A stretch of 36,263 bases of DNA from Candidatus Hebobacteria bacterium (GTDB taxonomy: Bacteria > Armatimonadota > Hebobacteria > Hebobacterales > Hebobacteraceae), in contig JALGTG010000010.1 of the NCBI GenBank assembly GCA_029821495.1, positions 6,083-42,345 of the forward strand, given 5' to 3'. The translations under genes were made by a program, and so were the position numbers. The notes beneath the pieces are model-generated. The model was not told the origin of the DNA, searched no databases, and saw nothing but the letters and a program-made list of their open reading frames with translations. Of this stretch, positions 2,505-36,263 are shown one piece after another. Each line of letters starts with the position of its first letter. Within the stretch, counting starts at the first letter, position 1.

Positions 2505-3641
2505 GTGGTGGCAACCTCGGAGCGATATCGTGTCGCTGTCGTCGGCGTCCGCGCGGTCGGGCGAGAGATGCTCCGCGTCCTCCGCCAGCGCAACTTCCCC
2601 ATCGAGTCACTCCGTGTCTTCGCCACCCGCGAGCGCGACATCGCCGTGGACGGCGAAAGCTATCACGTCGAAGTGATAAACGAGGACGCCTTCGACGAGA
2701 TCGAGCTCGCCTTCTTCGCGGGCGGCGACAAGCGCGAGGGCCACTTCGGTCCGGTCGCCGCCGAGCGCGGCGCCATCGTCATCGACAACGGTGACGCCTT
2801 CCGCCTCGATCCGGACGTACCCCTCGTCGTCCCGGAAGTCAACCCCGACGCGCTGCGCGGCCACGCCAATCTCATCGCCAACCCGAACTGCTCTACCATC
2901 CAGTTCGTCGTTGCGCTCAAGCCCCTCCACGACGCCGCCGGCCTCAAGCGCGCCGTCGTCGCCACCTACCAATCCGTCTCAGGCCGCGGCACCTCCCCCG
3001 AGGGCAACGACCCCGTGGAGCAGCTTCGGCGCGAGATGGCCGCACTCTGCGAGCGGGTCGCCGGCCCCGCCTCCTCCGGCCTCCCCGAGGAGAGGCTTCA
3101 CGACGTCATCGAGGCCGCCTCCCGAGACTGCCGCAGCGTGGTAACCGACCCCACCCTCTTCCCCCATCCCATTGCCGCCAACCTCATCCCTCACATATCC
3201 GGCTTCCTCGAAGATGGATACTCCAAGGAGGAAGTGAAGCTAGTAAACGAGACCCGCAAGATACTCGCCGCGCCCGACCTGAGAATCACCGCCACAGCGG
3301 TTCGCGTGCCCGTCTTCAACTCCCACGCAGAAGCCGTGAACCTGGAGTTCGACCGGCCCATCTCGGCCGACCAAGCCCGAGGCATCCTCGCACAGGCCCC
3401 CGGCGTTGTCGTGCTGGACGATCCCGCCTCCGCCGAATACCCGGTGCCCCTCGATGCCTCCGGCATGGACGAAGTGTTCGTCGGGCGCATCCGAGAGGAC
3501 CACACAGTGCCTTACGGCCTCAACCTCTGGGTTGTGTCCGACAATCTCCGCAAGGGCGCCGCGCTCAACGCCATCCAGATCGCAGAGAAGATGGTCGAGA
3601 TGAAGCTCCTGCCCGCTACCAATAGGACTGCCGCAGCATGA
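2505..3641 (+). CDS. asd: Aspartate-semialdehyde dehydrogenase
   Basis: RYRVAVVGVRAVGREMLRVLRQRNFP N-terminal NADP-binding region, NPNCSTIQFVVALKPLHDAAGLKRAVVATYQSVSGRG catalytic Cys motif. GTG start. Confidence 0.95.
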   Translation: MVATSERYRVAVVGVRAVGREMLRVLRQRNFPIESLRVFATRERDIAVDGESYHVEVINEDAFDEIELAFFAGGDKREGHFGPVAAERGAIVIDNGDAFRLDPDVPLVVPEVNPDALRGHANLIANPNCSTIQFVVALKPLHDAAGLKRAVVATYQSVSGRGTSPEGNDPVEQLRREMAALCERVAGPASSGLPEERLHDVIEAASRDCRSVVTDPTLFPHPIAANLIPHISGFLEDGYSKEEVKLVNETRKILAAPDLRITATAVRVPVFNSHAEAVNLEFDRPISADQARGILAQAPGVVVLDDPASAEYPVPLDASGMDEVFVGRIREDHTVPYGLNLWVVSDNLRKGAALNAIQIAEKMVEMKLLPATNRTAAA

Positions 3642-7963: not shown

Positions 7964-7990
7964 GGTGGCGGCCCGAAGGCCTTAGCCACC
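7964..7990. repeat. Hairpin family GTGGCGG...CTTAGCCAC, copy 1
   Basis: GGTGGCGGCCCGAAGGCCTTAGCCACC, inverted repeat with related copies at 16101-16125, 34668-34696 and (inverted) about 34926-34955. Confidence 0.8.
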
Positions 7991-8033: not shown

Positions 8034-8062
8034 TTGCGCCTCCCAAACCCCTGTGCTATAAT
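8034..8062 (+). promoter_or_regulatory. Putative sigma70 promoter for trpS (TTGCGC-N17-TATAAT)
   Basis: TTGCGC at 8034-8039, 17-nt spacer, TATAAT at 8057-8062 with TGC extension. Confidence 0.65.
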
Positions 8063-8095
8063 CCCCCTCGCCACCGCCCGAGCACAATAGGGTAG

Positions 8096-8139
8096 GGCAG
8101 GAGCTTGTTTACCCGGGCCTCATCGCAGGGTCTCCTGCC
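8096..8139. repeat. GGCAGGAG...CTCCTGCC bounded palindromic element in the trpS 5' leader
   Basis: GGCAGGAGCTTGTTTACCCGGGCCTCATCGCAGGGTCTCCTGCC. Near-identical core at 35898-35943. Confidence 0.85.
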
Positions 8140-8151
8140 ATCTGAGGAGCC

Positions 8152-9141
8152 ATGTCCCAACCACGCAAGAAAGTCATCTTCAGCGCAATGCAGGCCACCG
8201 GTCGCCTCCACCTCGGCAACCTGGAGGGCGCCCTCCGCAACTGGGTCCGCCTCCAGGACGAGTACGAGCTCTACGCCGGCATCGTTGACCTCCACTCCCT
8301 TACCACCACCTTCGACGACACGGGTGAGGTCCGAGACAACGTCCGCCAGGCTGCCATCGACTACCTCGCCGCCGGCCTCGATCCCGAGAAGACCGCCATC
8401 GTCGTCCAGTCCCTCGTCCCCGCTCACGCCGAACTCCACATACTCCTCTCCATGATCACCCCGGTAAGCTGGCTCGAGCGCGTCCCCACCTACAAGGAGA
8501 AACGCGAGCAGCTCCACATCGCCAGCCCCTCCTACGGCCTCCTCGGCTACCCCGTCCTCATGGCCGCCGACATCCTCGTCTACCGCGCCGACGTGGTCCC
8601 CGTGGGCCGCGACCAGGAGCCCCACCTCGAACTCACCCGCGAAATCGCCCGCCGCTTCAACCACTTCTATGGCAACATCTTCCCTGAGCCCCAGTCCCTG
8701 CTCACGGAGTTCGCCGTGCTCCCCGGGCTCGACGGGCGCAAGATGAGCAAGTCCTACGACAACTGCATCTACCTCGCCGATCCGCCCGACGACCTCCGCA
8801 AGAAGGTCGGCGACATGTTCACCGACCCCGTCAAGATCCGCAAGGACGACCCCGGTCATCCCGACCAGTGCCCCGTCTATGCCTACCACCTCGCCTACTC
8901 CCCCGGCACGGCCGAGGAGGTGCGGGACGAGTGCGAGGCCGGACGCCTGGGCTGCGTCGCCCACAAGCAGCAGCTTGCCGACATACTCATCGAGGCCCTG
9001 ACCCCCTTCTGGGATCGCCGCGCCGCCATCGCCGCCGATTCCGACCGCGTTGACGCCGTCCTTGAAGAGGGCGCCCGCCGCGCCGCCGCCCGCACGGCCG
9101 AGACCATGGACCTCGTCTGGCGGGCCATGAAGCTGCGCTAG
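8152..9141 (+). CDS. trpS: Tryptophanyl-tRNA synthetase
   Basis: FSAMQATGRLHLGNLEGALRNWV, HILLSMITPVSWLERVPTYKEK, YPVLMAADILVYRADVVPVGRDQEPHLELTREIARRFN, GRKMSKSYDN. Confidence 0.97.
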   Translation: MSQPRKKVIFSAMQATGRLHLGNLEGALRNWVRLQDEYELYAGIVDLHSLTTTFDDTGEVRDNVRQAAIDYLAAGLDPEKTAIVVQSLVPAHAELHILLSMITPVSWLERVPTYKEKREQLHIASPSYGLLGYPVLMAADILVYRADVVPVGRDQEPHLELTREIARRFNHFYGNIFPEPQSLLTEFAVLPGLDGRKMSKSYDNCIYLADPPDDLRKKVGDMFTDPVKIRKDDPGHPDQCPVYAYHLAYSPGTAEEVRDECEAGRLGCVAHKQQLADILIEALTPFWDRRAAIAADSDRVDAVLEEGARRAAARTAETMDLVWRAMKLR

Positions 9142-16004: not shown

Positions 16005-16066
16005 CGCCGTCAGCACACAGGACAGGACACATGCTCCTGCCCACGCATCTCGCTCCCCGTCCGTAC

Positions 16067-16137
16067 GGCAGGAGCCCCTAGGCCGCTGAAAGCGGCCGGG
16101 GTGGCGGCCCGAAGGACTTAGCCACGTGTCTCCTGCC
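16067..16137. repeat. Nested palindromic element: GGCAGGAG/CTCCTGCC arms enclosing GGCCGCT-gaa-AGCGGCC and GTGGCGG...CTTAGCCAC hairpins
   Basis: GGCAGGAG 16067-16074, GGCCGCTgaaAGCGGCC 16081-16097, GTGGC...GCCAC 16101-16125, CTCCTGCC 16130-16137. Confidence 0.85.
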
Positions 16138-16213: not shown

Positions 16214-18970
16214 ATGAACCACACATCGCGTCATACTGAAACCAAGCCCGACGCACCTATTCCTGCGGACACCATCGGAGCCGACCACATCCTTGCACAC
16301 CTCGGTGAGGCCTGGCCCGATTCCCTTCCCCAACGCGACATCGCCAACCTCCCCCGCCCCGTCTTCGACGCCCTCCGCGGCGGGCGCCCAGTGAATGCCC
16401 TCGCGCGGGCCATAGACAACCTTGACCGCACCCTCCCCGGCTGGCCCGAGCTAGCCGCCGCCGCCCTCGCACACCCAGCCTCTCACTCCGTTGGGCAGGA
16501 GCTTGCTCCTGCCACACTTAGCTTCCATCCCAGCCTTCAACGCCTCGCCGCCCTGCTCGCCCGCCGCCCCCTCCGAGACCCCGATCCCCTCCTCCGCGCT
16601 GTCGCCTCAACACCCGACCCAGAGGCACGCCTCTGGGTGCTGACCGCCCTCTCCGGCACTGACACTCCCGCCGTCCGCGCCGCCTGGCTCGACTACCTCC
16701 GCCGGACCGTCCAGGCCCGGGCACCTCGGCCCGACCGCGCCCTCTGGTTCGCCTTCCTCCACGCCTTCCTCCGCGGCTGGCTCACCTACCCCGACTTCCG
16801 GGATTGCCTCACCGCCGCCAACATCCTATCGGCCGCTCACAAGACGGGAGACTACCGCCGCGCCATCTCCCGCCTCGGCCTCTCCTCCCATCCCACATTC
16901 GGCAAGTGGCATCGCCAGGTCGTCTACGAAGTCGCCCACCAACCCGATGTCTCCCTTTCTGTCCGCGCCGGCGGCTGGATCCGCGACTTCCCCGGCGAGG
17001 ACTACCTCCTCGACGCGCTCTCCCGATTGGAGCAGAACCCCGACTCATGGTGGCCCCTTCATGTCCTGCGCTGGACATCCGGCATAGACCCCAACGCCGA
17101 TGACCTTGCCGGCCAGCTCCGTGCCTTCTCCCCCGTCACCCTCTGTCTGCTCTCGCTCATTCGCCCCGATCTCTCTCCCGCCGCTGAGCGCGCGCTCGCC
17201 GCGCCCGGCCACGAGGAGAGCGTTCGCTGGCTGAGGACCACCGGCCCCTCCGCCGCCCTCGACCTAGACTGGATTGAGGCGACCTTCGCTCCCTGGACGG
17301 CCGCTGTGTCCGACTCGATTGTCGTCGCTGTTGGCGCGCTCTGCTCTCTCGATCCCCCGGCCGACTTCACCGGCCCGGCCGATCCCGTCCTGCGCCGCCG
17401 CACCTTCCTGCGCGCGCACATTCTCCCTGACATGGACCGCGTGGTGGACAACCTATGCTACCTCCACGCGCTCCGCAAGCGTCACTTCGACATCATCTCC
17501 CAGCAGGCGGCGAAGGGCCTCCCCGCGGCCATTCGCTCCCTCGCCCTCTGGACCGAGAAAGCTGAGCAGAGCGCTCCCATCCTCTTCCGTCTCGCCCGGA
17601 AGGGCACTACACTCGCCCGTCGAGCCGCACTCGAAACGCTCCACATCTTCAAGGTGCGCAGCGGAATATCCGACCTCCAGCACCTCGAAAGGCGCGTCGA
17701 CCTCGCCTCCGCCTGGGCCGATGCCGGTCTCGAGGGGCGCCCCGCGCGCATCTGGTGGGACCTCGCCGGCTACCGCATCAAGCTCTCTGTCGCCTCCGGC
17801 AGAGTCGCCCTTCGCGCCTACTCCGACTCCCGCCCCCTCGCCGGGCTCCCGAAGGCCGTCACACAGCACCCGGGCTATGCGGAGGTCCGAGACGCTCGCG
17901 CCCACCTCGCCCGCGGCTACCGCTATTTCCGCCGCCGCTTCGAGGAAGCCATGGTGGAGGGTGTCTGCTACTCCGGCCGGGACTTCGCCGTCATCCTTGG
18001 CAATCCAATGGTGCGCTCCCTCGTCTCTCGGCTCATACTCCTCGTGGACGGCGCGCCTCTCCACTGGACTCCCTCCGATCCGCTCGACGACTGCCGCCCT
18101 CCCGGCGACATCGGCCGCGCTGAAAAAGTCGCCATCGCCCATCCCCTCGACCTATCGGGGCCCCGCACCCTCCCCGACTGGCAGCAGCGCGTCATCGAGT
18201 CCCGCATCCCCCAACCCTTCAAGCAGGCTTTTCGCGAGGTCTACCTGCCGGGGGCCGACGAGCGTGCCGCCACTTCCTGCCCCCGCTTCTCGGGGCAACC
18301 TGTTATCGCGCGCCGGGCCTTCGCTCTGCTGCGCACCCGCGGCTATGCGCCCAAGCGCGGCGATGCTCTCAAGGAGTGGCCCGCCCATCGCCTCTGCGCG
18401 CACATCCAATGGGCCGCGCCCCACGAGGACGCCGGCCGCCTCCTCGCCCAGTCCGGCCCAGCGGACCCGGTCACAAGCGGCGCCGTCCGGTTCGAGACCG
18501 ACGGCGGAGAGCCCGTCCCGCTCGCCGATGTGCCCCGCGTTGTCTTCAGCGAAACCCTGCGCGATGCCGATCTTCTCGTCTCCCGCGCCGCCGCGGGCGA
18601 GCTTGGCTTCACATCTCGGGAGACTCGTCGGCTCCGGGCGACTATCATCCGCTATCTGGCACGCGCCCTGGGTCTCACGAACATCTACACCGGCGACAAT
18701 GATCTCCACGTCATCGTCGAGGGCGAGCGCGCCATGTACCGCGTCCACCTCGGCAGCGGGTCCGTCCTCCTCGAGAATTCCCGCCGTCACCTCGACCTGA
18801 GATCAGTCGTCAACAAGCAGCTCGAGGGGTTGGTCGCCGAGAGCATGGACTCGCTCACCGCCCGCATCGTCGGCATCGTTGGCTCTCTGAGCCGCGATGA
18901 CCAGATAGCCGACCTATCCTTCCTCCAGCAGCTCGCGGCCGACGGCGGGCCGACAGAAGAGCCCTCCTGA
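16214..18970 (+). CDS. Large protein with helical/HEAT-like region and DUF4132/DUF7737-like C-terminus, function unknown
   Basis: Single 918-aa ORF. C-terminus SRETRRLRATIIRYLARALGLTNIYTGDNDLHVIVEGERAMYRVHLGSGSVLLENS resembles the RFxxVEG..Y.IHLGSGN.. end of DUF4132 proteins. FKQAFREVYLPGADE is also DUF4132-like. Confidence 0.7.
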   Translation: MNHTSRHTETKPDAPIPADTIGADHILAHLGEAWPDSLPQRDIANLPRPVFDALRGGRPVNALARAIDNLDRTLPGWPELAAAALAHPASHSVGQELAPATLSFHPSLQRLAALLARRPLRDPDPLLRAVASTPDPEARLWVLTALSGTDTPAVRAAWLDYLRRTVQARAPRPDRALWFAFLHAFLRGWLTYPDFRDCLTAANILSAAHKTGDYRRAISRLGLSSHPTFGKWHRQVVYEVAHQPDVSLSVRAGGWIRDFPGEDYLLDALSRLEQNPDSWWPLHVLRWTSGIDPNADDLAGQLRAFSPVTLCLLSLIRPDLSPAAERALAAPGHEESVRWLRTTGPSAALDLDWIEATFAPWTAAVSDSIVVAVGALCSLDPPADFTGPADPVLRRRTFLRAHILPDMDRVVDNLCYLHALRKRHFDIISQQAAKGLPAAIRSLALWTEKAEQSAPILFRLARKGTTLARRAALETLHIFKVRSGISDLQHLERRVDLASAWADAGLEGRPARIWWDLAGYRIKLSVASGRVALRAYSDSRPLAGLPKAVTQHPGYAEVRDARAHLARGYRYFRRRFEEAMVEGVCYSGRDFAVILGNPMVRSLVSRLILLVDGAPLHWTPSDPLDDCRPPGDIGRAEKVAIAHPLDLSGPRTLPDWQQRVIESRIPQPFKQAFREVYLPGADERAATSCPRFSGQPVIARRAFALLRTRGYAPKRGDALKEWPAHRLCAHIQWAAPHEDAGRLLAQSGPADPVTSGAVRFETDGGEPVPLADVPRVVFSETLRDADLLVSRAAAGELGFTSRETRRLRATIIRYLARALGLTNIYTGDNDLHVIVEGERAMYRVHLGSGSVLLENSRRHLDLRSVVNKQLEGLVAESMDSLTARIVGIVGSLSRDDQIADLSFLQQLAADGGPTEEPS
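16494..16513. repeat. Perfect palindrome GGCAGGAGC-tt-GCTCCTGCC inside a CDS
   Basis: Same 20-mer at 34805-34824 (intergenic). Here it is translated in frame as (V)GQELAPAT. Confidence 0.95.
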
Positions 18971-34667: not shown

Positions 34668-34708
34668 GTGGCGGTCGCCTAAGGCGACTTAGCCACGTGT
34701 CTCCTGCC
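34668..34708. repeat. Hairpin family GTGGCGG...CTTAGCCAC plus CTCCTGCC arm
   Basis: GTGGCGGTCGCCTAAGGCGACTTAGCCAC (GTGGC/GCCAC and GTCGCC/GGCGAC stems), then GTGTCTCCTGCC as at 16126-16137. Confidence 0.85.
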
Positions 34709-34742: not shown

Positions 34743-34804
34743 TTCCAACTCCATGCGCATCCTGTGCCCCCGTCCAGCGGCCTGGTGTGCTTCTGTACCT
34801 GTTC

Positions 34805-34824
34805 GGCAGGAGCTTGCTCCTGCC
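34805..34824. repeat. Perfect palindrome GGCAGGAGC-tt-GCTCCTGCC, intergenic copy
   Basis: Identical to 16494-16513, followed by TGCCCGA-ctc-TCGGGCA at 34828-34844. Confidence 0.95.
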
Positions 34825-34893: not shown

Positions 34894-34929
34894 ATGATGC
34901 GATCCCTCTGGTCTGCCGCCACCGGCATG
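34894..34929 (+). repeat. 36-nt exact upstream duplicate of the flgG start (12 codons)
   Basis: ATGATGCGATCCCTCTGGTCTGCCGCCACCGGCATG at 34894-34929 and 35018-35053. The upstream copy continues into a short ORF ending at TAG 34981. Confidence 0.97.
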
Positions 34930-35017
34930 TGGCTAGGCCGCCCAAGGCGGCCGCCATCCCGGTCCGCCCCTGGGCGGACTTAGGGAACCGCCCCCAGCAC
35001 CCAAAGGAGAGCACACC

Positions 35018-35806
35018 ATGATGCGATCCCTCTGGTCTGCCGCCACCGGCATGACCGCCCAGCAGACCAACATTGACGTCATCGCCAACAACCTCGCCAA
35101 CGTCAACACCGTCGGCTTCAAAGCCAGCCGCGTCGACTTCCAGGACCTGATGTACCAGACCATCAGCCAGCCCGGCGCCGCCGCCACCGAGGCCACCCAA
35201 GTCCCCACCGGCATCCAGATCGGCCTCGGCGCGCGCTACGCCGCCGTCCAGCGCCTCTTCTCACCCGGCGAGCTTCGCCAGACTGGCAACAGCCTCGACG
35301 TCGCCATCGAGGGCGACGGCTTCTTCGAGATCATGCTCCCCGACGGCAGCGCCGCCTACACCCGCGACGGCGCCTTCAAGCTCGACGGCCAGGGCCGCCT
35401 CGTCAACTCCGACGGCCACCCCCTCCAGCCCGACATCACCATCCCCGCCGACGCCACCCAAATCAGCATCGGCACCGACGGCACCGTCAGCGTCAACATC
35501 GCCGGCCAGACAGAATCCCAGCAGCTCGGCCAGATCACCCTTTCCAAGTTCCTCAACCCAGCCGGCCTCAGCAGCATGGGGCGCAACCTACTCCTCCCCA
35601 CCGCCGCCTCCGGCGACGCCCTTGCCTCCACCCCTGGCACCGACGGCCTCGGCACCCTCGGCCAGGGCTTCATCGAGCTCTCCAACGTCAGCATCATCGA
35701 AGAGATGGTGAGCATGATCGTCGCCCAGCGCGCCTACGAAGTCAACTCCAAATCCATCCAAGTCGCCGACGAAATGCTCTCCATGGCCAACTCCCTCCAC
35801 CGCTAA
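35018..35806 (+). CDS. flgG: Flagellar basal-body rod protein FlgG
   Basis: [127 protein letters not shown]. Confidence 0.95.
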
Positions 35807-35814
35807 GCCCGTTG

Positions 35815-35834
35815 GGCAGGGGCTTGCCCCTGCC
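35815..35834. repeat. Palindrome GGCAGGGGC-tt-GCCCCTGCC just after flgG
   Basis: Compensated variant (A-to-G on one arm, T-to-C on the other) of the GGCAGGAGC-tt-GCTCCTGCC element, 8 nt after the flgG stop. Confidence 0.9.
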
Positions 35835-35841
35835 ACTGCAG

Positions 35842-35863
35842 GGCGGGGTCTCCGCACCCCGCC
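35842..35863. repeat. Hairpin GGCGGGGT-ctccgc-ACCCCGCC
   Basis: Perfect 8-bp arms. A related one is at 36168-36189. Confidence 0.85.
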
Positions 35864-35906
35864 ACCTCCCCGTCGGGCAGGAGGCCACCTCCCCGTCGGG
35901 CAGGAG
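35861..35906 (+). repeat. 23-bp tandem duplication GCCACCTCCCCGTCGGGCAGGAG (x2)
   Basis: 35861-35883 and 35884-35906 identical. Confidence 0.92.
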
Positions 35907-35943
35907 GTTGTTTACCCGGGCCTTGCCGCAGGGCCTCCTGCCC
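35898..35943. repeat. GGGCAGGAGG...CCTCCTGCCC element with TTGTTTACCCGGGCCT core
   Basis: Core matches the trpS-leader element (8096-8139). 10-bp perfect arms. Confidence 0.88.
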
Positions 35944-35948
35944 CTCTG

Positions 35949-36062
35949 GGTAGCGCAGAGCCTGCCCTGAGCCTGCCGAATGGGTTCTCAACGTGCACCC
36001 CAATCGGTAGCGCAGAGCCTGCCCTGAGCCTGCCGAATGGGTTTCCAACGTGCGCCGTAATC
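35949..36062 (+). repeat. 57-bp tandem repeat (2 copies plus partial third)
   Basis: GGTAGCGCAGAGCCTGCCCTGAGCCTGCCGAATGGGTT... at 35949-36005 and 36006-36062. A third start GGTAGCGCAG is at 36063. Confidence 0.92.
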
Positions 36063-36068
36063 GGTAGC

Positions 36069-36121
36069 GCAGGTTTTCAACCTGCATGCCCGCCGCAGGC
36101 GGGTCCCGTAGGGCGGGCATG
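36069..36121. repeat. Two adjacent overlapping hairpins
   Basis: GCAGGTT-ttc-AACCTGC at 36069-36085. CATGCCCGCC...GGCGGGCATG with arms 36085-36094 and 36112-36121. Confidence 0.8.
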
Positions 36122-36167
36122 TTCCGCCGAGTGCGGACAGGCCCGCCGGCCGTTTGGCGTTCTGTAG

Positions 36168-36189
36168 GGCGGGGTCTCCAGACCCCGCC
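36168..36189. repeat. Perfect hairpin GGCGGGGTCT-cc-AGACCCCGCC
   Basis: 10-bp arms, 2-nt loop. Confidence 0.88.
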
Positions 36190-36263
36190 GCCGCGCCTCC
36201 CCTGCCTGTAGCCTACTCCTGCGAACGCAGTCGGGTAGGGCAGGAGCTTCGCCTCCTGCCCCG

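Follow-up and report, generated by a model that had tools for sequence, protein, structure and literature searches.

The palindromic segment at positions 16067-16137 of the window (the whole 36,263-nucleotide stretch of DNA that was analysed) has inverted arms that recur elsewhere in the window around different interiors, which raises the question of what these hairpins are and how one palindrome came to lie inside another. The first-pass annotation proposed REP/BIME-like mobile hairpins that nest into each other, and this is supported by copy number, covariation of the arms, non-orthologous insertions and the nesting itself. Sequence comparison makes it very probable that the arms belong to tagged REPs linked to RAYTs, and that the composite is a REP that was later invaded at its loop by a second, GC-targeting element, here called M.

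Within the window there are 17 occurrences of the arm GGCAGGAG, as against 3.80 +/- 1.87 in shuffled sequences (largest shuffle 8). The arm pair GGCAGGAGN{0,30}CTCCTGCC occurs 113 times in the 3.02-Mb genome and the reversed control once, so that its genome-wide copy number is far above chance. Every copy listed earlier is present, with one start corrected from 35898 to 35899. Unpaired arms are found at 3606 and 5753, where they are single, and at 16034, 34701 and 35876, where they are remnants or partial duplicates. The paired copies outside the composite are:

8092-8139, forward strand: REP with TTGTTTACCCGGGCC core and GTAG tag (hairpin 8096-8139), between the TATAAT and ATG of trpS
16490-16513, forward strand: minimal REP with GTTG tag (hairpin 16494-16513), in frame in the open reading frame 16214-18970 (DUF4132/DUF7737 protein)
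34801-34824, forward strand: minimal REP with GTTC tag (hairpin 34805-34824)
35811-35834, forward strand: GGCAGGGG REP with GTTG tag (GGCAGGGGCTTGCCCCTGCC at 35815-35834); the same hairpin flanks the RAYT gene L022
35895-35942, forward strand: REP with TTGTTTACCCGGGCC core and GTCG tag (hairpin 35899-35942); partial duplicate of the left arm at 35876
36235-36260, forward strand: REP with CTTCGC loop and GTAG tag (hairpin 36239-36260)

The GGCAGGAG hairpin family is a GTAG-type REP. In a sample of 62 elements, drawn from 466 kb of genome sequence and a small number of loci, GT stands at -4/-3 on one side of all 62, chiefly as GTAG, GTTG or GTTC, with canonical GTAG a minority of the tags. The tag also orients the loop, which in these 62 copies is always CTTG/CTTGC/CGTGT-like and never the complement. 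By a crude gene caller, some 29 of the 40 copies that could be classified are extragenic, compared to about 14% of random positions; 84% of random positions fall inside predicted genes. The family therefore has the properties of GTAG-type REPs, namely an unpaired GT tag at the foot of the stem, high copy number, mostly extragenic placement and RAYT genes that it flanks. Genomes of the window's family, together with a single genome from its order, have 29-113 copies of the arm pair, except those of genus g4, with one copy each; across the remaining class and phylum genomes sampled, the pair is scarce (0-9).

The window itself contains no RAYT, as noted at first pass, and seven were found elsewhere in the same genome. 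All seven proteins match PF01797 and pass NF047646 (REP-associated tyrosine transposase) with 99.6-129.4 bits, the curated cut-off being 80, and all have the HUH-type motif (MPDHYH/MPEHYH/MPHHYH or MPDHVH). The only solved relative found is 4er8, a TnpA-REP, and the nearest named matches are from Ca. Hebobacteria and Ca. Hebobacterum abditum (Armatimonadota). All seven genes have hairpins on both flanks in inverted orientation, an arrangement shared by the RAYTs of relatives. The flanking hairpins are:

L017, L019 and L021: GGCAGGAG
L018: GGCAGGAG plus GGCAGGAC
L022: GGCAGGGG
L016: GGCGGCATC
L020: GGCGGGYATTC

RAYTs of relatives are flanked by other arms, such as GGCAGGACC in L079 and GGCGGGCG in L081. 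G005 and G007, which belong to the family of the window's genome, appear to be the Ca. Hebobacteria and Ca. Hebobacterum abditum assemblies, since hairpin arrays are common to L074/L031 and to L076/L032. GGCAGG-type RAYTs separate from GGCGG-type RAYTs in a tree with moderate support, and RAYT lineages appear to track the arm type. This bears on the arm changes that had been described as compensatory. Covariation between arms was indeed found, but for the most part the variants represent distinct subfamilies that have RAYTs of their own. An example is the GGCAGGGG form at 35815, since GGCAGGGG hairpins flank the L022 RAYT.

Two further observations concern these genes. G001, a genome of 3,149,515 bases in one contig, has 75 GGCAGGAG arm pairs and zero RAYT matches, and therefore the copies there either persist without the enzyme or were recently left behind. 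The RAYTs at L016 and at loci L075 and L093 of G010 are flanked by paired hairpins of wholly different sequence, including CGCGGGGTT hairpin clusters, which suggests additional REP families in the class.

RAYTs (TnpA-REP, HUH/Y1) encoded elsewhere in the genome most likely copy the REPs as single-stranded DNA. According to published work (PMC8266576), TnpA-REP cleaves single-stranded REPs close to the hairpin, at CT or CA. The published guide model, in which the last bases of the tag set the cleavage dinucleotide, was considered and rejected, as no flank position on either side tracks GTAG/GTTG/GTTC in the way that it predicts.

Comparison of empty and filled sites, as the first-pass annotation had recommended, reveals insertion polymorphism at three places. 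In G002, G003, G004 and G005, trpS has a TATAAT about 6-12 bases before its ATG and no element, while in the window the REP at 8092-8139 separates the two. The REP at 16494-16513 is an 11-residue in-frame insertion in the DUF4132 protein and is missing from the orthologues in G001, G002 and G005. Finally, the spacer that holds the 16067-16137 composite has orthologous spacers without the element in G001, G002, G003 and G005. With regard to trpS, the short TATAAT-ATG gap in the four relatives (L113-L116) suggests a leaderless mRNA; in the window (8060-8154), the REP would supply a leader in which GAGG may serve as a ribosome site.

The composite is a CGTGT-loop REP whose loop holds a second repeat, M. 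Its parts are:

16063-16066, forward strand: REP tag GTAC, a variant of GTAG/GTTG/GTTC
16067-16074, forward strand: left REP arm GGCAGGAG
16075, forward strand: first REP loop base, C; with the preceding G it forms the GC that precedes M
16076-16125, forward strand: module M, a double hairpin in the REP loop, CCCTAGG...TAGCCAC
16075-16101, forward strand: hairpin A of M, CCCC-TA-GGCCGCT-gaa-AGCGGCC-GGGG
16101-16125, forward strand: hairpin B of M, GTGGC-GG-CCC-gaa-GGA-CT-TA-GCCAC
16126-16129, forward strand: remaining REP loop GTGT (CGTGT loops are known without M)
16130-16137, forward strand: right REP arm CTCCTGCC

Two partial copies also lie in the window:

7965-7989, forward strand: M-type element, hairpin B half
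34668-34708, forward strand: degenerate composite of REP and M (hairpin B of M, GTGT, right arm)

M is a non-coding element of about 50 bp that consists of two bulged hairpins (with TA bulges) in inverted orientation, with the consensus CCCTA-RG-stem-CY-GGGGTGGC-GG-stem-CY-TAGCCAC. The inner stems are highly variable, the 45 copies having 34 distinct sequences for the A stem and 29 for the B stem, and yet they pair with their own partners (at 93% of the variable positions for A and 90% for B, versus 64% and 59% for swapped arms; 0 of 20,000 permutations reach the observed values). A pattern of the conserved parts finds 10 copies in the window's genome; G002 has 15 and G010 has 17, and the controls were near zero. 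M occurs in nine of 291 phylum genomes, all of the same class.

Such covarying stems, the stable fold (z-scores of -3.57 as DNA and -2.74 as RNA) and the mostly extragenic placement of the copies might also be expected if M and the REPs were structured RNA (an attenuator, terminator or regulatory RNA) rather than mobile DNA. This is very unlikely, and it is given the least weight of the explanations considered here: Rfam gave no match at the gathering score (only weak, chance-level matches at the composite), the positions are non-orthologous, copies lie within other repeats and one is in frame within a gene, and the REPs are associated with RAYTs. M and the REPs may secondarily act as terminators.

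Although the left edge of M was not part of the pattern used to retrieve its copies, all 45 of 45 lie directly after GC (background 10.7%), and the same is true of 47 of 47 once further loci are included. This GC is part of the target and not of M, because uninterrupted copies of four unrelated host repeats match exactly (GGGCAGGAGC^GTGTCTCCTGC, GCTTCGGCAGC^ACGCTACCGAA, AGATTCTTCGC^TTCGCTCAGAA and CTTCGACAGGC^TCAGGGCAGGC). The junctions are exact, with no host bases lost and no visible target duplication. Only exact or near-exact matches were used for these conclusions; when up to 3 mismatches in 22 were allowed, 16 of 120 random junctions also matched. In viral contigs, 23 sequences match the M pattern exactly and look like chance matches; the 10 with a definable left boundary lacked the GC and varied in length, and they served as a negative control. 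Insertion after a short fixed target is characteristic of IS200/IS605 relatives, and M shares this feature, inserting 3' of its target without duplication. The seven Y1 genes of the genome all lie beside hairpins other than M.

Most of the hosts are themselves palindromes. By inspection, at least 36 of the 47 copies are in palindromic repeats of unrelated sequence, and when the flanks of M are joined, 19 of 45 give a stem score of at least 7, compared to 1.3% of random GC positions. The hosts include at least five unrelated repeats (GGCAGGAG, TTTCGGGAG (L266), GCTTCGGCAG, GATTCTTCGC and TTCGRCAGGC) as well as non-palindromic sites. The TTTCGGGAG palindrome came to light when one M site was compared between G005 and G007, of the same genus; the flanks there are too diverged for an uninterrupted site to be visible. 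The GGCAGGAG REPs contain several GCs, on both strands, and M is found at the one that borders the loop; in a single case (L258) it lies on the opposite strand. REPs that differ in tag and loop remainder (TTGC, GTGT, GCGT) carry nearly identical copies of M, which points to repeated, independent insertion.

One might instead suppose that the composite is ancestral, and that REPs with complex loops lost their interiors by precise deletion to give the simple hairpins. Slippage deletion is common at hairpins, and composite and simple forms do coexist. However, this order of events does not account for M in at least five unrelated repeats and in non-palindromic sites, always after GC, nor for near-identical M within REPs of different loop remainders, nor for the confinement of M to so few genomes of the phylum, and it is therefore quite improbable. 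Insertion of M into preexisting REPs remains the preferred order.

A shorter module, core1 (CTTGGNCGCCTCCGGCGNC), is found at the insertion point of M in both GGCAGGAG and TTTCGGGAG hairpins, and is probably another loop-inserted element. The TTGTTTACC core is found only within GGCAGGAG arms. The first-pass annotation had described these interiors as swappable cores. The differing interiors are real, but M, and probably core1, are inserted at one fixed loop point and not freely swapped. A related possibility is that loop modules move between hairpins by recombination or template switching, without transposition. Fold-back template switching could correct both arms together, and the CTTG/CTTGC loops and core1 are common to GGCAGGAG and TTTCGGGAG arms. 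The hosts of M nevertheless share nothing beyond the terminal GC, and some are not palindromic at all, while the junctions are exact and the host bases intact. Exchange of this kind is thus unlikely as the source of the composite, and insertion of M at the GC is again preferred.

Other hairpins are found near flgG. Ahead of flgG lies a duplicate of its first 36 bases (34894-34929, within the region 34894-35053), and this first copy is broken at GGCATG^ACCGCC by a variant double hairpin, giving adjacent filled and empty sites with no target duplication:

34930-34986, reverse strand: variant double hairpin of 57 bp with TGGC/TCCC outer stems, in the duplicated flgG 5' end

Hairpins of other families (GGCGGGGTCTCC, GCAGGTTTTCAACCTGC and tandem CCTGCCCTGAGCCTGCCGAA) cluster downstream of flgG, at 35841-36190, and some of them carry GTAG tags.

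Several parts of this picture were already known, including REP/RAYT systems, REPs within palindromes and the targeting of REPs by insertion sequences. The REPs resemble the GTAG REPs and REPtrons of Di Nocera et al. 2013 (PMC3733652) in their 5' GT-type tag, short stem-loop, many mostly extragenic copies and repeat-flanked RAYTs. They differ in their Armatimonadota host (a phylum name absent from that text), in the frequent GTTC and GTTG tags besides GTAG, and in having several RAYT/hairpin subfamilies within one genome. The same paper mentions in passing REPs within palindromes in A. variabilis (REP dimers), T. roseum and H. neapolitanus. The main text of the paper on the Hebobacteria class (PMC10290634) has no words starting with "repeat", "transpos" or "palindrom".

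What appears to be new is M, as a double hairpin that is specific for GC and prefers loops; a limited literature search found no earlier description of a double hairpin of about 50 bp that combines a strict GC target with a preference for the loops of many unrelated palindromes. M has the two inverted, bulged hairpins and REP-doublet layout of REPINs and BIMEs (Bertels and Rainey 2011, PMC3116915), but differs from them in its GC target and hypervariable inner stems, and no GTAG tag or cognate RAYT was found for it. Assignment of M as a REPIN was rejected: its CCCCTA end has no tag, and none of the RAYT loci examined is flanked by M-type bulged hairpins. Insertion at a fixed point of the REP hairpin is shared with IS1397, IS621 and ISPpu9 (PMC1525189). 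They, however, are complete insertion sequences, and a direct duplication is made by one or more of them, whereas M is short and non-coding and makes no visible duplication. The mitochondrial hairpin and double-hairpin elements (PMC2800124) are also small repeated double hairpins in spacers and genes; they are organellar, the likeness noted is one of architecture, and loop or GC targeting is not described in the part of that account consulted.

In the proposed sequence of events, the CGTGT-loop REP would form first and M would later enter its loop. M inserts directly 3' of a GC, usually where the stem of another hairpin repeat meets the loop. M may move by a single-strand reaction similar to that of the REPs, with the exposed hairpin loop presumably serving its enzyme as the landing site. 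A more tentative proposal is that M could be a non-autonomous single-stranded DNA element whose enzyme recognizes an extruded hairpin, so that M homes, 3' of GC, to the loops of other mobile palindromes and stays out of genes by residing inside repeats. RAYTs might act on M in trans.

The trpS and in-frame cases indicate that REPs alter both leaders and proteins. The several RAYT/REP pairs in this genome family, with their natural differences in tag and arm, provide a test set for how RAYTs read hairpins. M indicates that nested palindromes can arise via insertion at a fixed point in a hairpin loop, and its insertion pattern suggests that hairpins are extruded in living cells. M also offers a model for how tiny mobile DNA may find refuge.
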